Part shown: positions 1 to 9,196 of the stretch, piece after piece | Layout of the letters: the number at the start of each line of letters is the position of its first letter | Position numbering within the stretch: the first letter of the stretch is position 1 | From: Halorubrum cibi | Lineage (GTDB): Archaea > Halobacteriota > Halobacteria > Halobacteriales > Haloferacaceae | Direction of reading: 5' to 3' | NCBI RefSeq assembly: GCF_900182635.1 | Contig: NZ_FXTD01000003.1 | Span: 62,001-126,000, forward strand | Length of the DNA stretch: 64,000 nt | Notes under the pieces: generated by a model | The model's database searches: none | Seen by the model: the letters and a program-made list of their open reading frames with translations, nothing else | Told to the model about the DNA's origin: nothing | Made by a program: the position numbers and the translations under genes

Positions 1-1
1 C

Positions 2-460
2 GCGTACGACCTGCTCGTGATGAGCGTCGTCCGAGCAGTCCGGGCGGCGGCCCCGCACCTCCGCGCGGACGGCGGCGGCACGATCGTGAACATCGCCTCC
101 AGAACGGTCAAGGAGGCCGCACCGAGCAACGTCCTCTCGAGTTCCGTTCGCATGGGCGTCATCGGGTTGGAGAAGACCCTCTCGACGGAGCTGGCACCGG
201 AGGTGCGCACGAACGCCGTCCTGCCCGGTTCACACGAGACGCCGCGGATCGAGGAGCTGATCGAGTACGCCGTCGACCGCGGCGAACTCGAGAGCTACGA
301 GGCCGGCGTCGAGGCGCGGACGGAGGGCGTTCCGCTCGACCGTCTGGGCGATCCGAAGGAACTCGGCGATCTCGTGGCGTACCTCTCCTCGCCGCGGTCG
401 AGCTTCCTCAACGGGCAGGCCGTGACGATCGACGGGGGCGCGGGTTCCTCGACGCTGTAG
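2..460 (+). CDS. SDR-family oxidoreductase, C-terminal part (5' end outside window)
   Basis: The frame is open from the window edge, so the N-terminal NAD(P)-binding half is missing. What remains is the second half of a short-chain dehydrogenase/reductase: an NIAS stretch, the ELAPEVRTNAVLPG segment after the catalytic helix, and a C-terminal LNGQAVTIDGGAG motif typical of the family. The usual YxxxK catalytic pair is not intact. Aligning on the following GVIGL puts Ser and Arg where Tyr and Lys normally sit, so the reaction may differ from a classic ketoreductase, or catalysis may be lost. The membrane-protein gene after it is convergent, so no operon partner is visible. The substrate is unknown. 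Confidence 0.85.
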   Translation, partial: AYDLLVMSVVRAVRAAAPHLRADGGGTIVNIASRTVKEAAPSNVLSSSVRMGVIGLEKTLSTELAPEVRTNAVLPGSHETPRIEELIEYAVDRGELESYEAGVEARTEGVPLDRLGDPKELGDLVAYLSSPRSSFLNGQAVTIDGGAGSSTL

Positions 461-500
461 GATCGACGGCGGTGCGGGTTCCTCGACGCCGTTGGGTCGA

Positions 501-1388
501 TCACGCCCCGGCCGCGGCGCGTTCGAGCGCCGCGGGGTCGACGTCGGCCTCGAAGAGCCGCGCGCCGCAGGCCTCACACGTCGCCGCGAGCACGTCGTAC
601 CGCCGGCAGCAGGACTCCACGACGGTCGCGTCGAGCGTCACGACCCCGTCACACGTCGGGCACGCCTCCACGAACAGCCGGAGGCTCCCGAGCAGTTCGC
701 TGCGCCTGGCCGTCGAGAGACTCTCCCACCCGTCCCATCGGTCCGCGAGCGTCGACGCGGCGGCGAGGTCGGCGAGGAACGCCTGTCGGGACTCCCAGCG
801 ACCCGCGGGCTCGTTCTCGATGGACGCGACGTAGGCGTGACCGTGGTCCGTCAGGGCGACGGTCTCCGTCTCGGAGTCCGCCGCCGCGTCGAGATCCAGG
901 AACGCCGCGAGCGCGGCCTCGTCCTCGTCGGCGTCGGCGAGGTTCCGAGCCTCCCGCCGCCACGCGTCGTGGAACCGCTCCTCGAGGACGAAGTCGTCGA
1001 TCGCCGGATCCTCGAGGAGGACGCCGGCCTCGACGAGGGCGGTTGCGGGGTCGAACGGTCCTGACTCCGTCGACTCGGCGACCGACTCGGCGGGCGTCCC
1101 GCTCGCGAAGCCGTCCCGCTCCGGGCCCTTGTCGAACAGCGCGAGCACCCGGTCGGGGAGGTACCGCTTCGTCAGCGCCGGCGTCCCGGGAACGAGGTAG
1201 CCGCGGACCCCGATCGTCGCGGCGGCGACGGCGAGGACGGCGACCGCCCAGCCGACCGAGACGGTCGCGACGGCGATGGCGAGTCCGACGGCGATGACGA
1301 GGTTGACTATCGTACACGGGAGACAGCGGTTCGACCCGGTGTACCGCGGGTCCCGAAGCCAGATCGGGAGGCGAGATAACGCGTCCAT
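501..1388 (-). CDS. Haloarchaeal membrane protein with C-terminal cysteine-pair domain
   Basis: A 295-residue protein of unrecognised function. Near residues 20-65 there are two adjacent hydrophobic helices, preceded by a CLPC pair (residues about 23-26). The middle is acidic and soluble, rich in Asp, Glu and Ala. The C-terminal 50 residues contain CPTC, CC and CEAC clusters that look like a zinc ribbon or a redox cysteine set. The start is the ATG that gives a short N-terminus before the first helix. It is convergent with the upstream SDR gene. The CPTC...CEAC arrangement suggests metal binding, but this is inference; a role in membrane-linked thiol chemistry is equally possible. Confidence 0.75.
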   Translation of the reverse strand: MDALSRLPIWLRDPRYTGSNRCLPCTIVNLVIAVGLAIAVATVSVGWAVAVLAVAAATIGVRGYLVPGTPALTKRYLPDRVLALFDKGPERDGFASGTPAESVAESTESGPFDPATALVEAGVLLEDPAIDDFVLEERFHDAWRREARNLADADEDEAALAAFLDLDAAADSETETVALTDHGHAYVASIENEPAGRWESRQAFLADLAAASTLADRWDGWESLSTARRSELLGSLRLFVEACPTCDGVVTLDATVVESCCRRYDVLAATCEACGARLFEADVDPAALERAAAGA

Positions 1389-1660
1389 GCCTCATAGGGA
1401 GGCGACGACGGGACATAGGTATGACACCCCTACCGACGCGGACCCGTCACGGACCGAACCCGCGGGGTCGGTCCCGACGGGAGTCGGAGACGCCGCCGCC
1501 GTCGGCGAGGTTCGTCGACCGGATCGCGCATAATCGGTGATTGATCGGTGATCGATCGGTGGTTAATCGGATGTTCACGGAGGTTTATCAGCGATCGGGT
1601 CGGGTTCGAACGCGAAAAGGTCGAATTCGAACGCCGAAAAATCACGGTCGCGGGAACGAC
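1389..1660. other. Intergenic stretch with short ATCGGTGAT-type repeats
   Basis: No gene is visible here. Around 1530-1570 the unit ATCGGTG recurs three to four times with small variations, and around 1605-1645 TCGAA occurs twice in an AT-richer stretch. It lies downstream of the HTH gene (minus strand) and upstream of the membrane-protein gene (minus strand), so it may contain the promoter of the latter. Confidence 0.4.
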
Positions 1661-2194
1661 TCACCCGAAGAGCGCGTTGAGGTACACCCACCGGTCCGTC
1701 CACAGCTGGTAGCCGAGCGAGGCCGCGAACGAGGCCAGGAAGACGCTGACCCAGAGTACGGGGTCGAGCGCCGAGATCACCGGGACGCCGATCAGCGCGG
1801 CGAGGACGACGAAAAGCGAGAGCGTCCCGAGCAGGCTGTAGTACTCGCTCCAGGTGATCCCGTAGGGCGTCACGACCTCCATGTACACGTCGACGCAGCG
1901 GGCCTCCTCGGCGAGCCGGATCGTCTTCCGGTCCGACTCGTACTCGACGATCCCGCGTCTGTCGAGTTTCGGGAGATGCGTTTGGTGAAGCGAGTTGTAG
2001 ACGCTGTTGCGGACGTTCTTCGGCGGGGGTGACTCGCCGGTCTCGTGTTCGGCGATGGTCTCCGCGAGCTCCCGCAAGGTGGTCGTTCCGACGGTGTCCT
2101 GTAGATGCTTGATCGTTTGACACCTGCGCTCGTTGCGCAGCAGGTCGTGGATCTCCGTTTCGGGAAGCCCGCCGTATCGATCGGTTATCGCCAT
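1661..2194 (-). CDS. HTH (DUF7344-like) regulator with two C-terminal membrane helices, paralog 1
   Basis: A 177-residue protein. Residues about 10-90 form a winged-helix-like domain with the hallmark LLRNERRCQTIKHL start and the YNSLHQTHLPKLDRRGIVEY wing segment seen in haloarchaeal DUF7344-type domains (assigned from memory). Two hydrophobic helices follow at about residues 118-165. It is the first of four such proteins within 8.2 kb; the others start at 8131, 8753 and 9197. It faces away from the first surface-protein gene across a 500-bp gap. An in-frame GTG at 2239 would add 15 residues; the ATG at 2194 is preferred because it places the HTH domain close to the N-terminus. A membrane-tethered DNA-binding regulator is the likely role. 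Confidence 0.8.
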   Translation of the reverse strand: MAITDRYGGLPETEIHDLLRNERRCQTIKHLQDTVGTTTLRELAETIAEHETGESPPPKNVRNSVYNSLHQTHLPKLDRRGIVEYESDRKTIRLAEEARCVDVYMEVVTPYGITWSEYYSLLGTLSLFVVLAALIGVPVISALDPVLWVSVFLASFAASLGYQLWTDRWVYLNALFG

Positions 2195-2697
2195 GTCTCG
2201 TGATCCGACTCGTGTTCGGTCCGAGTCATCAATACCCACACTAGCCCCCCAAGTAAGTACGCGTTACCTACGGCGAGTCGGTTCTCGACAGACCCAGCCC
2301 GAAAGACGACAGGCAACGCGTGTCGGGTCCATCCGGAACGACGCGACCGCGGACGCGATCCACCCCTCCGTTCGCCCGACTCACGACCGGGACGTAATCG
2401 TCCGTTAGGGCCGCTCGTCGCGAGTAGCGTGTGCGTACTCGGAGGGAAACCTTCGATCGCTCCCACCGCCATCGGCGATTTTTGCCGACCCTCTCGACGT
2501 TCCGATCCGACGGAGCGGATCGCTCGGATCGGAAGCCAAAACGATCGTTTCACTCTGAAAAACGGCACGTTATCGGGAGAGAATCCGACGTTCAAGCCTT
2601 CAACGGCGACGTTTCAGCAGAAATGGTGTGATTGGCTAAGGGGGTGGGTATCGTGGCCATCTACCACGCCCGGCGAACGAGTCGGGGTCGATCCACG
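2195..2697. other. Divergent upstream region of HTH paralog 1 and surface gene 1
   Basis: A 500-bp gap with no convincing gene. AT-richer patches occur near 2235-2265 and 2470-2600. A hairpin with stem CGTGG/CCACG and a 7-base loop lies at 2652-2668, 30 bases before the ATG of the surface protein. It is a plausible long regulatory region for the surface-protein cluster. Confidence 0.5.
2652..2668 (+). promoter_or_regulatory. Leader hairpin before surface gene 1
   Basis: CGTGG (2652-2656) pairs with CCACG (2664-2668) around a 7-base loop. It sits where the more elaborate hairpins occur before surface genes 2 and 3, but the sequence is different, so a shared function is only a suggestion. Confidence 0.35.
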
Positions 2698-3903
2698 ATG
2701 TCAGACAAGAAAATCGAACTGTCACGGCGGAACGCACTGATCGGGCTCGGAACCGTGGGGGCCGCCTCCGCGGGAGCCGGGCTGGGAACGAGCGCGTACT
2801 TCAGCGACGAGGAGGAGTTCACCGGGAACATGATGACCGCCGGCGAGCTCGACCTCGCCGTCGATTTCGTCGTTCACGAGGACCAAGGCTCCGCGGGAAC
2901 GTACACGATCAACAGCTTCACGAACGAGGTGAACGGCACCGATCCGGGCGACGATCTGACGGTCAACGGTGACGGAACGGCGATGAGCCAGACGCTCGAC
3001 GACGTCAAGCCCGGCGATCACGGCCACTCGTACTTCTGTTTCACCATCGACGACAACCCGGCGTACATCTGGGCGTGCGGGGAGCTAACGGACACGAGCG
3101 AGAACGGTTATACCGAACCGGAGCCGGAAGACGACAACGGCGAGGGAGAACTGGAAGAGCACATCGAGGTCGACGTCACGTACTGTACCCTCGACGATCA
3201 GGGAGAGCAGACGGACACTGGCGAGATGATCTTCTCCGGTACGCTCCGAGAGGTGCTCGAACTGCTTCAGGCGGGAGTCCCGCTCGATGGTAGCGGAGAC
3301 GGCGACGCAGCTGCGGGCGATCAGGCTCCCTTCGCCGGTACGGGCACGGACGATGCCGAGAACGCCTGCCTCTGTTTCGACTGGGAACTCCCAACCACGG
3401 TCGGCAACGTGATCCAGGGCGATTCCCTCGAGTTCGACCTATCCTTCCACGCGATCCAGTCCCGGCACAACGACGGTACCACGAACCCGTGTATTGGCGA
3501 TCTCGTCCTCCTCGAGAACAACGAGGACTCGCCCGGACTCGAGGATAACGGACCGGAAGGCACGGAACCGTACATCGAGTGGACGCTCGGGACGGACTCC
3601 GCCACGGACTCACTTGAGGATAACCAGATGGAGGTCACGTTCAATAATCCCGCTAACGGGACCATGGTCTTCGATTACCGAGTCGACGGCGAATCTGGTG
3701 ACGACAGCCAATATACAGGCCAAACAATCGGATCTGGCCCTCTTGCCGGGCAAGACTTCGGGAAAAGATACAATTGGGTCGTGGTCTCCTCCGGAGGGAG
3801 CGAGACAGTGACGCTGACCGCCTTCGACGGGGTCGAACTCGGTGCTCGCGTGGGTGCCGAGCAAAATTACTACATCGACTGGATCCGGTTCGACGTGGTA
3901 TAG
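2698..3903 (+). CDS. SipW-type (TasA-like) exported surface protein 1 with extra C-terminal domain
   Basis: A 401-residue protein. The N-terminus has a twin-arginine-like LSRRNALIGLG motif, a hydrophobic core and the AYFSDEE cleavage zone followed by AGELDL, the pattern of SipW-cognate signal peptides (TasA/CalY class). An acidic beta-rich body follows, with a DDVKPGDHGH segment and the CLCFDWELPTTVGNVIQGDS block shared with the two following genes. After SRHND there is a private tail of about 130 residues (from about 3505), predicted beta-rich, which the paralogs lack. The start was chosen at 2698 because it directly precedes the signal peptide; an in-frame start at 2632 would add 22 unlikely residues. 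Expected location: cell surface, possibly a fibre or matrix subunit. Confidence 0.85.
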   Translation: MSDKKIELSRRNALIGLGTVGAASAGAGLGTSAYFSDEEEFTGNMMTAGELDLAVDFVVHEDQGSAGTYTINSFTNEVNGTDPGDDLTVNGDGTAMSQTLDDVKPGDHGHSYFCFTIDDNPAYIWACGELTDTSENGYTEPEPEDDNGEGELEEHIEVDVTYCTLDDQGEQTDTGEMIFSGTLREVLELLQAGVPLDGSGDGDAAAGDQAPFAGTGTDDAENACLCFDWELPTTVGNVIQGDSLEFDLSFHAIQSRHNDGTTNPCIGDLVLLENNEDSPGLEDNGPEGTEPYIEWTLGTDSATDSLEDNQMEVTFNNPANGTMVFDYRVDGESGDDSQYTGQTIGSGPLAGQDFGKRYNWVVVSSGGSETVTLTAFDGVELGARVGAEQNYYIDWIRFDVV

Positions 3904-3906
3904 TCC

Positions 3907-3919
3907 GATAATTAATTAC
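3907..3919 (+). promoter_or_regulatory. AT-rich promoter-like element before surface gene 2
   Basis: The stretch ATAATTAATTA just after the stop of surface gene 1 resembles a TATA element. Initiation about 25 bases later would give a leader that carries the T-arm-like and SD hairpins before the ATG at 4009. Confidence 0.4.
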
Positions 3920-3934
3920 GCCTCCGCAGGTGCC

Positions 3935-4002
3935 GGACGCGACCGCTCGGTCGTGTCCGCGGCGGTTCGACTCCGACGGTGGGTTTCCCCCTTGGGGGGT
4001 GA
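3935..4002 (+). promoter_or_regulatory. Three-hairpin leader of surface gene 2, third stem masking the SD
   Basis: Stem 1: GGACGCGACC (3935-3944) with GGTCGTGTCC (3949-3958), one G-U pair. Stem 2: GGCGG (3961-3965), 7-base loop TTCGACT, then CCGAC (3973-3977), which resembles a tRNA T-arm with one broken pair. Stem 3: CCCCC (3987-3991) with GGGGG (from 3994). The GGGG of stem 3 is the Shine-Dalgarno of the ATG at 4009, so folding would hide it. The same layout recurs before surface gene 3. Confidence 0.55.
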
Positions 4003-4008
4003 ACGCAA

Positions 4009-5694
4009 ATGAGCGACAACAACGGATTCAAGATATCGCGGCGGAAGGCGCTCGCCGGGCTCGGCGGCATCGGCGTCGCGAGCGCGGGAGCGGGCCTCGG
4101 CACGAGTGCCTACTTCAGTGACACGGAATCGTTCGAGAACAACTCGATCACCGCGGGTGAACTGGACCTGAAGGTCGATTGGCAGCAGTCGTACTACGGC
4201 GCGGCGGAGACGATCGTCCCCGTCAACGCGTACCCGGACCACGACGGAGACGGGCTCCAATCGATCGACGACAACACGGAGTACGTGCTCGACAACGAGG
4301 ACGGTGGAAACGACCCGATCGAGCTCACGTGTGAAGACCTCGAGAGCGGTGCGGACCTTCCAGAGAATGTCTTCTCCTCTCCGGATCGGTCGGCAGACAA
4401 CGGCGGGCCGATCGACCAGGACTCGCTCGTGGCGCTCGACGACGTGAAACCCGGCGACTGGGGAGAGATCACGTTCAGTCTCCACCTCTGTGACAATCCG
4501 GGCTACGTCTGGCTCACCGCCGACAACTACAGTCAGAGCGGCGGGACGCTGACCGAACCGGAACAGGTGTCGATGAACTCGTCGGATCCGGGCTCCGTCA
4601 CGGAGAGCGACGACACGGGCGACCTCGCCGACAACACGTACGTCGAACTCTGGTACGACGACGACTGCGACAACATCCGCGACACGGGCGGCGGCGAGGG
4701 CGAAGGCGAGGCCGCCGACGTCGTCATCGTCATGGACCGGTCCGGATCGATGAGCGGCTCGCTCAACGAGGCACAGCAGGGCGCGAACGCACTCATCTCC
4801 GCGCTCAGCCCGGACGATCAGGTCGGTCTCGTCTCGTTCTCGACGGGCGGACAGGACGGTAGCGGCGGCACGAACGACTCGACGCTTGACGCGGACCTGA
4901 CCACCGATCACGGCTCGGTCCAGACGGAGGTGAACAACCTCACGGCCGGCGGACGGACGAACATGGAGGCCGCTGTTGAGCGAGCTCACGAGGAACTCAC
5001 GGTTGGAGACACGTTCGATCCAGAATACAGCGAGAGCGGGAACGCACGTTCCGGCGCGCGGAAGATCATGGTCGTCCTCGGCGACGGCTCGCCGAATGAG
5101 GGTACGGCCGTGACCGATCCGATCGGAAACACGGATCCGACCGAGGAGGCCACCAACGCGAAGAACGACGACATCGAGATCTTCACCATCGCCTACGGTA
5201 GCGGAAGTCCGAGCGGCATCCTCGGCGACATGGCGAGCGATCCCGCGAACTACCCCGACATCGATCAGTTCGCGTTCGACGCGGACGTCTCGAACGTCGT
5301 CTCGGTCTTCCAGGACATCGGCGGTGTCGTCGGCGGCAGCGAGCAGCTGATCCTCGGCGAGGGCGACGGCGAGCACGATTCCCCCGTGACGCTCGCGGAG
5401 GCCATGGCGATCATGGACCGCAACGACGGCCGGATCCCGCTCGACGGGACCGGGGACATGGGATACGGCGACGGAGCCACCTCGCCGGAGCGCGACTGCT
5501 TCCCGGCGGGTGCCCAGAAGTGTATCGGCATGAAGTGGTGGGTGCCGACCGAGGTCGGCAACGTGATCCAGGGCGACTCCGTCGAGTTCGATCTCGGTTT
5601 CTACACCGAACAGTGCCGCCATAACGACGGCAGCGGGCAGACGATGAACGGCACCGATTCCGACGGCGGATCGGGTAACACGACGGCATCGTAG
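4009..5694 (+). CDS. SipW-type surface protein 2 with inserted von Willebrand A domain
   Basis: A 561-residue exported protein. Residues 1-45 form the SipW-type signal (SRRKALAGLG, AYFSDTESF, AGELDLKVDW). A TasA-like part follows to about residue 235, with DDVKPGDWGEITFSLHLCDNPGYVWL. A complete vWA domain at about 238-445 shows the MIDAS elements: VIVMDRSGSMSG (DxSxS), GGRTNMEAA (Thr) and VVLGDGSPNEG (Asp). The body then resumes with CIGMKWWVPTEVGNVIQGDS and CRHND, as in the neighbouring paralogs. A metal-dependent adhesion domain inside a fibre-type subunit suggests a tip or adhesive minor subunit; that role is inference. It lies between two paralogs, probably in one operon, with a hairpin leader in front of the start. 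Confidence 0.87.
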   Translation: MSDNNGFKISRRKALAGLGGIGVASAGAGLGTSAYFSDTESFENNSITAGELDLKVDWQQSYYGAAETIVPVNAYPDHDGDGLQSIDDNTEYVLDNEDGGNDPIELTCEDLESGADLPENVFSSPDRSADNGGPIDQDSLVALDDVKPGDWGEITFSLHLCDNPGYVWLTADNYSQSGGTLTEPEQVSMNSSDPGSVTESDDTGDLADNTYVELWYDDDCDNIRDTGGGEGEGEAADVVIVMDRSGSMSGSLNEAQQGANALISALSPDDQVGLVSFSTGGQDGSGGTNDSTLDADLTTDHGSVQTEVNNLTAGGRTNMEAAVERAHEELTVGDTFDPEYSESGNARSGARKIMVVLGDGSPNEGTAVTDPIGNTDPTEEATNAKNDDIEIFTIAYGSGSPSGILGDMASDPANYPDIDQFAFDADVSNVVSVFQDIGGVVGGSEQLILGEGDGEHDSPVTLAEAMAIMDRNDGRIPLDGTGDMGYGDGATSPERDCFPAGAQKCIGMKWWVPTEVGNVIQGDSVEFDLGFYTEQCRHNDGSGQTMNGTDSDGGSGNTTAS

Positions 5695-5730
5695 ACTATC
5701 GTCGACGAAACCATCGCCCGACACGGGTGT

Positions 5731-5796
5731 GCGTCCGGGGTCGAACCCGGACGCGGCGGTTCGACTCCGCCGGCGGGTTTCCCCCGAGGGGGATGA
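5731..5796 (+). promoter_or_regulatory. Three-hairpin leader of surface gene 3, third stem masking the SD
   Basis: Stem 1: GCGTCCGGG (5731-5739) with CCCGGACGC (5746-5754). Stem 2: GGCGG (5755-5759), loop TTCGACT, CCGCC (5767-5771). Stem 3: CCCCC (5781-5785) with GGGGG (5788-5792), whose G-run overlaps the SD-like GGGGGATGA before the ATG at 5803. Stem 1 differs in sequence from the one before surface gene 2 but still pairs; stems 2 and 3 are nearly identical in sequence to those of gene 2. Confidence 0.55.
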
Positions 5797-5802
5797 GCAC
5801 GA

Positions 5803-7254
5803 ATGAGCAACCACGACAAATTCGAACTCTCGCGTCGGAAGGCGCTCGCGAGCCTCGGTGCGGTCGGCGTCGCGAGCGCCGGCGCTGGACTCGGCACGAG
5901 CGCCTACTTCAGCGACGAGGAGTCGTTCGAGGGCAACTCGCTGACGGCCGGGCAACTCGATCTGAAGATCGACTGGCAGCAACGGTACCACGGCCCCGAG
6001 AGCGGCGACCTCTCGATGTACGGCGACGCCGGACGGCCGTGGGTCAACGCCCACCCCGATCACGACGACGACGGGATCCAGTCGCTCGACTTGGGCGAGT
6101 ACGACTCCCTCGGCGGTGACGAGGTGGTCACCTACGAAGATCAGGGGGCGAACATCCAGCGGTACCTCACCTGCGAGACGCTCACCCACGAATACGAGTT
6201 CGGCGACCGCGAGGCGCTCGTGGAACTCGACGACGTCAAACCCGGTGATTCGGGGGAGATAACGTTCAGCTATCACCTGTGTGACAATCCGGGGTACGTC
6301 TGGCTCTGCGGGGACCTCGTCGACGCCAGCGAGAACGGCCTGACTGAGCCGGAGGCGAACGCCGAGGACGAGGAGGACGGCGTCGTCGAGCTGCTGGACG
6401 CGATCCACGTCCAGGCCTGGTACGACGTGGACTGCGACAACGAGTTCGACGAGACGGACGAACAAGGCGTACTCGCCGGCTCCCCGACGACGCTCCGTTC
6501 GTTTCTGGACGAGTTCGAGGAGGTTCCGGAGAACTGTCGGATGTTGAACCCGGGCGTTTACCCGGGGATCGAACCCACCACGGGGTGTCGTCAGCTCGCT
6601 CCGATCGAGTTCACGTCCGACGGCCTGACAGTCGACGGTGCCGGCGACGTCGTCAGGGTGGAGGAGGGGACCGCCGGCGACGACGAGGACAACCTCGTCG
6701 TGTGGGTCCGGTTGGAGGATCCCGACAACGACCTGATCGACGGGCTGATCGTCAAATTCGACGACATGTACGTGTCCGGCATGCTCCGTCCGAACGCCGA
6801 GAGCGACCTCGAGGACGTCATCCAGTTCGACTGGACGCGGGTCGACGAAGTCGAGGGTGACGACGGGCAGACCTACAGATCGGACGACCTCGGGATGTGC
6901 GAGTTGGTGTTGGAGGACACTGACGGTGACATCCGAGCGGATCTGGAAGGGGCGAGCTGTTCGACCGGGGAGAACAACGTCGTCACGCCGAACGGGAACG
7001 GCGGGGGGACCTTCGTCTCCGCCCGTTTCTCCTACTGTGACCCGAACGAGGGCGAACCGGTGTGTTTCCCGGCCGAGTGGACGTTCTGTCTCGGCTTCGA
7101 GTGGTGGATCCCCGATCACGTCGGCAACGAGGTCCAGAGCGATTCGGCGAGCTTCGATCTCGGCTTCTACACCGAGCAGTGTCGCCACAACGACGCTCCC
7201 GGATCGACGCTCGGAGGCGGTAACGGAACCGACGACGGCTCCGGGTCCGCCTGA
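5803..7254 (+). CDS. SipW-type (TasA-like) exported surface protein 3
   Basis: A 483-residue paralog of the two preceding proteins. The signal segment reads LSRRKALASLG...AYFSDEESF...AGQLDLKIDW. The conserved DDVKPGDSGEITFSYHLCDNPGYVWL block lies near residues 143-170, and the C-terminal FCLGFEWWIPDHVGN...FYTEQCRHND block ends the fold before a Gly/Ser/Asp-rich tail. Between them sits an acidic, cysteine-containing insert (about residues 215-410) with no recognisable domain, in the place that holds the vWA domain in protein 2. It is likely co-transcribed with its neighbours and exported through a SipW-type signal peptidase that is not encoded in this window. Confidence 0.85.
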   Translation: MSNHDKFELSRRKALASLGAVGVASAGAGLGTSAYFSDEESFEGNSLTAGQLDLKIDWQQRYHGPESGDLSMYGDAGRPWVNAHPDHDDDGIQSLDLGEYDSLGGDEVVTYEDQGANIQRYLTCETLTHEYEFGDREALVELDDVKPGDSGEITFSYHLCDNPGYVWLCGDLVDASENGLTEPEANAEDEEDGVVELLDAIHVQAWYDVDCDNEFDETDEQGVLAGSPTTLRSFLDEFEEVPENCRMLNPGVYPGIEPTTGCRQLAPIEFTSDGLTVDGAGDVVRVEEGTAGDDEDNLVVWVRLEDPDNDLIDGLIVKFDDMYVSGMLRPNAESDLEDVIQFDWTRVDEVEGDDGQTYRSDDLGMCELVLEDTDGDIRADLEGASCSTGENNVVTPNGNGGGTFVSARFSYCDPNEGEPVCFPAEWTFCLGFEWWIPDHVGNEVQSDSASFDLGFYTEQCRHNDAPGSTLGGGNGTDDGSGSA

Positions 7255-7338
7255 CCAGTCGGGATGTCCATCCGCCGGACCCCGACTTCCCGCGTCGAGG
7301 GGACGCGGGGCGGCTTCGAGGATAGGTGAAGACAAGCG

Positions 7339-7509
7339 ATGAAACCGAACGACCCGTCGGACGGTCCGCGCCGTGCCGGGACCGGACGCCTTCGCGTCGA
7401 CGGCGGCCGGATCGGCGGCTACCGGCTCGTGACGAAACGGAACGTGCTGCGGCTTCTGATCCTGTTGTTGATCCTGATCCCCATCGTCGATTACCTCTGG
7501 AGCCTGTAA
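7339..7509 (+). CDS. 56-residue single-pass membrane protein, last gene of the surface cluster
   Basis: A short open frame starting at an ATG with an AGGTGA ribosome binding site nine bases upstream. The first 35 residues are Arg/Gly-rich and basic (GRIGGYRLVTKRN). They are followed by one strongly hydrophobic helix LRLLILLLILIPIVDYLW and two terminal residues. It begins 84 bases after the surface protein 3 stop on the same strand. Its basic cytosolic tail and C-terminal helix contrast with the acidic proteome. It may be an anchor, assembly or export partner of the surface proteins; no family is recognised. Confidence 0.6.
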   Translation: MKPNDPSDGPRRAGTGRLRVDGGRIGGYRLVTKRNVLRLLILLLILIPIVDYLWSL

Positions 7510-7558
7510 GGTCGAGATCCGGGCGTTCGATCGGTGTGACGTCTCGCTTGGATCGCCG

Positions 7559-8131
7559 TCACTCCTCCTCGAGACCGGCCCCCAGGCGGTTCCGGTTCGT
7601 CGCCCGGACGTAGACCGTGGACGAGAGCAGGAACGCGAGGACGATGAGTCCGAGGAGGACGGCCACGGAGACCGAACCGAACGGCGGGACGCCGAGCGCC
7701 TTCATCCCGAGGAGGGCGACGCCGACGAGCGAGAGCCCGAGGAAGTAGTAGCTCCACGGAAGCCGGCTCTCGGGGACGGGTTCGAGGTAGAACTCCACCC
7801 GGCGGACCTTGCCCGTGAGGGCGACGCGTCCCGTCCCGGGGTCGTATCGGATCACGCCGCACTCCTCCAGCATGGGGAGGTGCGTCTGCGTCAGTCCGGA
7901 GTAGACGCGTTTGCGCTGCGTCGCGGTGAGTTCTGCGGGCGGAACGTCGTTCTCGCGGGCGGCCACGTACTCGACGAGGTCGTCGAACGCGACCGGGCGG
8001 TCGGCGTGCGCCTTCAGATACCTGAGCACGTGTCGCCGCCGCTCGTTGCGGAGGATCTCGAAGACCGTCTCGCGAGGAACCGACTCCTTCGCGGCCGCGG
8101 ATCGAAGCGTCCGGCGGAGCGGTGAGGGCAT
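7559..8131 (-). CDS. HTH (DUF7344-like) membrane regulator, paralog 2
   Basis: A 190-residue protein with the same plan as the gene at 1661-2194. The winged-helix-like domain at about residues 18-110 contains EILRNERRRHVLRYL, RKRVYSGLTQTHLPMLEECGVIRYD and an acidic/aromatic linker (PWSYYFLGLS). Two hydrophobic helices follow at about 128-172. The ATG at 8131 gives a compact N-terminus. The stop of paralog 3 lies only ten bases upstream on the same strand, so the two are almost certainly co-transcribed. It is convergent with the small membrane protein of the surface cluster. It is likely a membrane-anchored transcription regulator. Confidence 0.82.
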   Translation of the reverse strand: MPSPLRRTLRSAAAKESVPRETVFEILRNERRRHVLRYLKAHADRPVAFDDLVEYVAARENDVPPAELTATQRKRVYSGLTQTHLPMLEECGVIRYDPGTGRVALTGKVRRVEFYLEPVPESRLPWSYYFLGLSLVGVALLGMKALGVPPFGSVSVAVLLGLIVLAFLLSSTVYVRATNRNRLGAGLEEE

Positions 8132-8141
8132 CGTCGATCAC

Positions 8142-8753
8142 TCAGGTTCTCCCGAAGGGTCGTCGGTGAAGCGCGTTTCGGCGGGTGCGATACATGTGAA
8201 CGCTCGAGGAGACGAGAAACGCCGTGACGACGAGCGCCGCGGTGGTGAACGAGACGACGCCGAAGGCCGTCCCGACGACCACCGCTCCGAGAAGGAGCAG
8301 GACCGCGAGGAGCGAGAGCCCGAGGTAGTACTGCGCCCAGGATATCTCGTTTTCGGGGACGTAATCGAGATAGAACTCGACGTCGGCCATGCCGTCGGTC
8401 GGTCGGAGCTCCCCGCGCCGACTGTCGTACTCGATCACGCCGGTCTCGTCGAGCTTCGGGAGGTGCGTCTGTCGGAGCGCCGTGTACACCCGCTTCCGGT
8501 CCGCGTACTCGACGTCAACGACCCGCTTGTCGTTCTCCCAGGCGGCGATCGTCTCGACCATGTCCCGGAGTTGGAGCCGATCCTCCGGAGACTCCCGGAG
8601 GTACTCGAGCACGTAGCGTCGTCGCTCGTTACAGAGGACGTCGAAGATCTCGTCGCGCGTCGGACCCTCCGATCCGGCCGTCCCCGCCGAGCCGATGTCT
8701 GAGAGGTCCGCCGCCTCCTCGGTCGTCTTGAGGTCGGTGTGTCCCCCCATCAT
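8142..8753 (-). CDS. HTH (DUF7344-like) membrane regulator, paralog 3
   Basis: A 203-residue protein: an N-terminal 35-residue linker, then the HTH domain with EIFDVLCNERRRYVLEYL and RKRVYTALRQTHLPKLDETGVIEYD, then EISWAQYYLGLS and two helices at the C-terminus. The start at 8753 is the first of two consecutive ATGs. A TTG seven codons upstream is less likely, because an AT-rich TATA-like stretch (about 8778-8795) stands about 30 bases before the ATG, as expected for a leaderless message. It forms a two-gene unit with paralog 2 and is divergent from paralog 4. Confidence 0.82.
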   Translation of the reverse strand: MMGGHTDLKTTEEAADLSDIGSAGTAGSEGPTRDEIFDVLCNERRRYVLEYLRESPEDRLQLRDMVETIAAWENDKRVVDVEYADRKRVYTALRQTHLPKLDETGVIEYDSRRGELRPTDGMADVEFYLDYVPENEISWAQYYLGLSLLAVLLLLGAVVVGTAFGVVSFTTAALVVTAFLVSSSVHMYRTRRNALHRRPFGRT

Positions 8754-9196
8754 CCCGGGGACTACAGAAAGCAATCACTAATAATTAATTAATTTCACAT
8801 TAAATAGTCTATGAATCTGACGACGGGGAGCCGGTCGGAGTCAGTGCGACGCGAGCGCGGCCGCTTTCGGCCACATCGAGTGCTCAAGCGCCGACAGGGG
8901 CGAACGGATCGGTGGCGAAATGTTCGATTTCGGCGTATTAATGTATGGATAAAAAAATATGGGAACGGTTAATATGTGACGATGTGTCTGACAGCGTGAC
9001 GATACGCGGCGGATCCGCGCTCGCCCGCGCTCGGCCGGCATGTGCCATCGGAGGCGGAAATTTCCCGGAAACGACCTCCTCCCGCGGGAGCGGCCGCCGC
9101 TCGCGACCGTTCGGTCGTTCGGCCTCCGAACGCGGTCGAACCACGGCCGAACCGGTCCGATCGGAACCTACGGGCGAACAGGAGACGACTACCCAA
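8754..9196. other. Divergent promoter region between HTH paralogs 3 and 4
   Basis: A 443-bp gap with two AT-rich islands: 8775-8815, serving the minus-strand gene, and 8935-8975, containing ATAAAAAAATATG in plus orientation. The frame of paralog 4 stays open back to 8945, but that stretch is Arg/Ser/Pro-rich and looks non-coding. If transcription starts just after the plus-strand island, paralog 4 would have a leader of more than 200 bases. Confidence 0.5.

Follow-up and report, generated by a model that had tools for sequence, protein, structure and literature searches.

The leaders that precede two SipW-type surface genes in the window (by which we mean the whole stretch of 64,000 nucleotides analysed here) carry a compact tRNA-like element. 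Comparison of its sequences indicates that the conserved unit is an acceptor-like helix (P1) stacked on a T-arm, with a T-loop TTCGAYT, an unpaired GG and an optional insert. The element lies between cistrons and does not open the primary message in the manner of a leader. The surface genes concerned all score above the cut-off of 19 of TIGR04088 (SipW-dependent signal peptide proteins):

2701..3903, + strand: SipW-type surface gene 1, the first gene of the cluster (TIGR04088, 30.1 bits)
4009..5694, + strand: SipW-type surface gene 2, with a VWA domain (TIGR04088, 34.2 bits; PF00092, 1e-20)
5803..7254, + strand: SipW-type surface gene 3 (TIGR04088, 29.7 bits)

A search with covariance model R1 found no tRNA-like element upstream of gene 1. 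By the protein of gene 3, Halorubrum aquaticum is among the closest named relatives. The genome, which belongs to the genus Halorubrum, encodes tRNase Z. Its nine SipW genes fall into two clusters, the second of which (L215; G000:C10:86500-98500, minus strand) has three elements between its genes, in the order gene, element, gene, gene, element, gene, element, gene, and ends with a hydrophobic ORF, starting at contig position 88655, which is a candidate for the signal peptidase. The cluster of the window is flanked by predicted winged-helix proteins that are alike and have C-terminal membrane segments (1661-2239, 7559-8131 and 8142-8774, all on the minus strand), and these may regulate it. Directly 3' of gene 3 lies a small ORF of 56 aa with a membrane segment (7339-7509, plus strand), for which no family match was found. 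The leaders before genes 2 and 3 comprise the following features:

3923..3927, + strand: leader 2, 5' strand of P1 (UCCGC), pairing weakly with 3979-3983 and including two G-U pairs
3929..3930, + strand: leader 2, conserved unpaired GG, in a position comparable to G18G19 of tRNA
3934..3959, + strand: leader 2, variable insert hairpin, the 'first stem' of the sequence-only reading (constrained fold)
3960..3978, + strand: leader 2, T-arm-like hairpin CGGCGG[UUCGACU]CCGACG, read from the sequence, with one G.A mismatch (3962/3976)
3979..3983, + strand: leader 2, 3' strand of P1 (GUGGG), directly abutting the T stem
3987..3999, + strand: leader 2, Shine-Dalgarno hairpin P3, CCCCC/GGGGG (constrained fold)
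5716..5720, + strand: leader 3, 5' strand of P1 (GCCCG), pairing with 5774-5778
5725..5727, + strand: leader 3, conserved GG(G), from comparison with relatives
5732..5753, + strand: leader 3, variable insert hairpin (constrained fold)
5754..5772, + strand: leader 3, T-arm-like hairpin CGGCGG[UUCGACU]CCGCCG (covariance model R1)
5774..5778, + strand: leader 3, 3' strand of P1 (CGGGU), the closing helix next to an A.G mismatch (constrained fold)
5780..5793, + strand: leader 3, Shine-Dalgarno hairpin P3, UCCCC/GGGGA (constrained fold)

The sequence-only reading had described the same order of hairpins in both leaders, and this was borne out: a variable hairpin is followed by the GGCGG/TTCGACT hairpin and then by the C5/G5 hairpin, whose G-run is the Shine-Dalgarno, as had been proposed, with 6-10 nt between it and the ATG start codons at 4009 and 5803. 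A T-arm-like stem with a 7-base TTCGACT loop had also been claimed, and it is found in both leaders, but the stem of leader 2 contains the G.A mismatch, which is absent from the orthologues. That reading missed a fourth helix, P1 (3923-3927/3979-3983 and 5716-5720/5774-5778), which is strong in relatives, weak in both window copies, and not significant in either leader alone when the upstream complement is compared with dinucleotide shuffles (p = 0.82 in leader 2 and p = 0.80 in leader 3). The position of its 5' strand in leader 2 agrees with the conserved CCCAC-N2-3-GG of relatives, and in leader 3 the orthologous position is kept in the loci L036 and L047, where the insert differs in sequence yet keeps its pairing. 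Folding of the two leaders as single sequences was only weakly better than that of shuffles (z between -1.2 and -2.2) and the minimum-energy fold of each differs from the structure described; the case therefore rests on the relatives and not on these two sequences by themselves. A covariance model built from relatives and run over the whole genome confirmed that both leaders are more than chance, the matches of model R1 being at 3941-4003 for leader 2 (44.0 bits, E = 2.6e-6) and at 5744-5797 for leader 3 (52.9 bits, E = 2.5e-8). Genome-wide there are four matches with E < 1, all in the two SipW clusters, and one further weak match (E = 3.5) likewise falls inside these clusters.

The pattern used in the search for relatives consisted of the T-arm plus GGNGGGTTTCCCCC, with up to 3 mismatches allowed and the 5' strand of P1 outside it, and it matched in 15 of the 52 genus genomes. 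Loci obtained through similarity to protein 3 showed the element before SipW-type genes in Natronococcus, Natronorubrum, Halobellus, Halomicroarcula, Halosimplex, Haloarchaeobius, Natronomonas and others, so that the search for the same leader before such genes, which had been proposed as a check, found it recurring across haloarchaea. In these loci, compared side by side, the upstream strand of P1 (consensus CCCAC) pairs with GTGGG directly 3' of the T-arm-like hairpin; this strand reads mostly (G/A/T)CCCAC and is followed by 2-3 nt and then by GG, an offset kept in 86/102 relatives, where the GG was itself partly used in choosing P1. The T-loop is TTCGACT or TTCGATT in 96/102 copies, the loop having been part of the search. 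Counting pairs outward from the loop over the 102 SipW-associated copies, 11 are essentially always formed, a 12th is enriched (0.73 vs 0.47 expected) and background is reached after position 13; P1 and the T-arm together form a stack of 11-12 bp, the length of the tRNA acceptor/T-arm stack. The 'first stem', which had been described in both leaders, turned out to be an optional insert: nothing stands between GG and T-arm in 56/102 copies, and the remainder carry up to about 70 nt. Among inserts with a junction of at least 25 nt, 27 of 39 fold better than 95% of shuffles. The claim of a kept three-hairpin structure thus holds in that structure is under selection, but the conserved core is the tRNA-like element and not three independent hairpins.

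Analysis of covariation pointed to the same architecture. RNAalifold, applied to a MAFFT alignment of 32 compact copies, predicted P1 stacked on the T-arm without any hint, and both-sided pair changes were found in 22 cells vs 7.3 in shuffles, a signal that was lost when the partners were slid by 1-3 columns. Circularity was avoided by scanning the 90 nt upstream of 30 pattern loci for a complement and comparing it with dinucleotide shuffles; the complement was found beyond shuffles in these loci (Fisher chi2 = 158.7, 60 df; 217.9 when GG was included), with p values that are optimistic, the elements of related species not being independent.

Identity of the element with a tRNA gene was rejected, as there is no D hairpin above chance (60 D-arm hairpins around GG observed vs 54.8 expected) and the compact copies have no anticodon arm. 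The complete cloverleaf of a tRNA gene was not found, and matches to the Rfam tRNA clan were below threshold only, among them tRNA-Sec at 5708-5779 in leader 3 (26.2 bits). ARAGORN called 8/102 elements tRNA, most of these calls beginning at P1; a control in which the 5' half was shuffled gave 1 call. Over positions 1-9000 of the window it found no tRNA genes. In Halorubrum aquaticum the same program reports a tRNA-Arg(CCG) at L047:1132-1219, the leader of the orthologue of gene 2, and public genomes may list elements of this kind as tRNA genes by mistake. Three properties of t-elements of the 5S type are present: a T-arm with a 7-nt UUCRANY loop, a stacked helix of ~12 bp (weak in the window copies) and no CCA, which follows the element in 0/102 copies. 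CCA is known to discourage tRNase Z.

A t-element upstream of 5S rRNA in Haloferax volcanii was reportedly described by Hoelzle in 2008, and Hoelzle 2012 (Biochimie 94:940) is said to have listed 47 other tRNA-like elements in Haloferax, selected ones of which remained uncut when tested in vitro. In many genomes the model built from SipW leaders alone also matches an element immediately 5' of 5S rRNA (L112-L115, L118, L119 and others), and this element shares the 11 bp, the GG and the T-loop. Both RNase P and tRNase Z accept t-elements as substrates in Haloferax, where processing of the 5S t-element by tRNase Z generates the 5' end of 5S (PMC4326828); placed in other transcripts, t-elements release crRNAs in vivo (PMC4326828; PMC4946936).

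A same-strand acidic ORF ends within 200 nt (median 32) upstream of 75/102 elements vs 80/1020 random positions; this ORF is itself SipW-like in 59/75, while a clear upstream cistron is missing for 27/102 copies. In the SipW clusters of 16 genus genomes the element precedes 24/39 later genes but none of the 13 first genes (Fisher p = 6e-5, with related species not independent), and we therefore conclude that it is intercistronic. No AT-rich promoter peak was found upstream of P1 across the elements, for which reason a promoter just upstream of P1 was rejected. The AT-rich stretch ATAATTAATTA at 3908-3918, between gene 1 and leader 2, may be a local exception, and it is a possible promoter for gene 2, which would offer an alternative to co-transcription. 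The intercistronic position points to processing or punctuation of the message at least as much as to ordinary control by leader folding. The earlier proposal that leader folding controls translation retains the Shine-Dalgarno-covering hairpin found after the element in most copies, but has to face the absence of the element before first genes.

A survey of the order gave matches at E <= 0.01 in 49/117 genomes (about 40% of sampled Halobacteriales), some of the weaker matches being 5S-upstream elements and one a tRNA. At E <= 1e-3, 148 genomes sampled from the phylum gave no match outside the order. In the 16 genus genomes, a TIGR04088 signal starts within 160 nt downstream of 20/23 matches with E <= 1e-5 and of 0/20 matches with E of 0.1-1; these signals were assigned by TIGR04088 coordinates, a strict regular expression having undercounted them. 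Other proteins behind the element match the NCBIfam fimbrial models TafA, TafC, TafE or TafF. No Rfam match to an mRNA leader, yjdF included, was found in the window and 13 relative loci, and our search of the literature found no earlier report of the element before SipW genes.

Copies of related build also occur in other settings. Elements of the same build precede non-SipW genes at L109 (complement of G046:C7:17855-17915) and L111 (complement of G108:C7:96887-96948), where the acceptor-like helix ends about 2-3 nt before the ATG and the predicted tRNase Z cut would leave a leader of about 1 nt. At L127 (G046:C7:29000-30800, minus strand) two tandem tRNA-like elements ~118 nt apart lie upstream of a gene with the HTH-like start MTDSDQSSTSKPYRDEERLRELYHDRGLTTREIADELG. 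A different closing helix, GCCGC/GCGGC, is found at L125 (G006:C2, two copies) and L169 (G062:C2), tens of nucleotides before the Shine-Dalgarno GGAGGTGAT, and the next gene there is small and not SipW-type.

The leaders had been proposed to mask the ribosome binding site; some copies (L099, L100, L110, L144 and L170) keep the element and have no Shine-Dalgarno or no C/G hairpin. A purine run follows the element in 90/102 copies; its G's are paired to the C-run upstream of it in 73% of them. Leaderless mRNAs are a common type in haloarchaea. In L099, L100 and L110 the ATG stands 6 nt after P1, so that about 4 nt would remain after the predicted cut and the message would be almost leaderless.

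From the conserved structure, the tRNA-like geometry, the genomic position and the gene specificity observed here, we infer a cleavage, the enzymes responsible and an effect on expression. That the element is a tRNA-like punctuation mark between SipW cistrons, at which tRNase Z (and perhaps RNase P) would cut and thereby split the surface-protein mRNA, seems to us the best explanation, at about even odds. In this mechanism the acceptor-like P1 would stack on the T-arm and the GG would be placed for docking with the T-loop, as in the elbow of tRNA. tRNase Z would cut just 3' of P1, as it does at the 5S rRNA element, and RNase P might cut 5' of P1. The geometry of the 5S-upstream elements predicts cuts at about 3985/3986 in leader 2 and about 5779/5780 in leader 3. 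The operon mRNA would in this way yield several shorter messages. Each would begin a few nucleotides 5' of the Shine-Dalgarno hairpin or, for some copies, directly before the start codon and nearly leaderless, and the hairpin would then set the translation or stability of the released message.

Against cleavage stand the other tRNA-like elements of Haloferax that reportedly remained uncut, and the 27 copies that have no clear cistron upstream. The Shine-Dalgarno hairpin right behind the predicted cut could also hinder tRNase Z, and the P1 of the window copies is weak, energy alone favouring another fold. In the main rival reading the element may instead be a tRNA-shaped cis-regulator that is not cleaved, the folded state of which, perhaps stabilised by a ligand, an ion or a protein that binds the tRNA elbow, would decide whether the adjoining Shine-Dalgarno is free. 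In yjdF there is precedent for a tRNA-like leader that is able to regulate translation and to enhance it (PMC9142559), and the Shine-Dalgarno hairpin adjoins the element in most copies. In unconstrained minimum-energy folds of the window copies, moreover, the T-arm can pair with the Shine-Dalgarno region instead. Such pairing was nevertheless rejected, the T-arm hairpin being favoured over it in 80% of the relatives' copies, and a competing hairpin of GTGGG (the 3' strand of P1) with the CCCC of the C-run was rejected as a switch, being favoured in 10% only. Since several copies also have no Shine-Dalgarno and the element is missing before first genes, where a translational switch would be equally useful, we consider regulation of this kind unlikely, although it deserves weight.

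The strictly intercistronic position within clusters and the great stability of the stacked helix would also suit a mechanical separator of cistrons, which could stop ribosome run-through or translational coupling, block exonucleases or mark the 3' end of the upstream message, recognition by RNases being incidental. A plain stem would suffice for this, whereas the invariant T-loop and GG, with a stack as long as that of tRNA, call for something that recognises a tRNA-like shape, and we regard such a separator as improbable. The resemblance of the T-arm sequence to tRNA 3' ends, together with the paralogy of the surface genes, could be read as a feature of the DNA, that is, tRNA gene remnants or integration sites spread with duplicated genes. 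The compensatory pair changes, a placement ahead of start codons that stays constant from family to family, and the absence of the element elsewhere in the genome make this reading highly implausible.

Returning to cleavage, the wider proposal, that tRNA-like marks of haloarchaea, cut by the enzyme that processes tRNA 3' ends, split the mRNAs of fimbria operons and so set subunit ratios, appears to us to fall slightly short of an even chance. The element may explain unequal amounts of fimbrial subunits from one operon. To our knowledge, archaeal mRNAs have yielded very few conserved structured RNA elements, and we know of essentially no archaeal tRNase Z substrates beyond tRNA and 5S rRNA. An element that is conserved across the order, goes with a single class of secreted surface proteins and is missing before the first gene of each cluster makes the use of tRNA machinery on archaeal mRNAs directly testable in laboratory strains of the Haloferax type.

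The mitochondrial transcripts, in which tRNA punctuation cuts polycistronic RNAs, offer one comparison, and if the proposal is true the SipW element would be a natural counterpart in archaeal mRNA. In both cases tRNA shapes between coding sequences would mark the cuts, but the SipW elements are not tRNAs and most are not called by ARAGORN. With the yjdF riboswitch (PMC9142559) the element shares a tRNA-like mRNA fold just upstream of the Shine-Dalgarno and a GG comparable to that of the tRNA D-loop; unlike yjdF, it is archaeal and intercistronic, has no Rfam yjdF match and has no conserved four-way ligand-binding junction. The 5S t-element is alike in its acceptor-like helix directly on the T-arm, its T-loop UUCGAYU, the GG after the acceptor 5' strand, the 11 bp and the lack of CCA. 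The SipW element differs from it in lying between protein-coding cistrons, usually with a Shine-Dalgarno hairpin, in its P1 (CCCAC/GUGGG vs CCGAY/RUCGG) and in its optional large inserts, and its cleavage would be a parallel that we draw from likeness. The t-element as such is known, and its intercistronic use in mRNA before SipW-type genes is the new part. Synthetic crRNAs flanked by t-elements are processed in vivo outside the rRNA context (PMC4326828, PMC4946936), and whereas those constructs are engineered, the SipW element may represent a natural and conserved use of the same device in mRNA.
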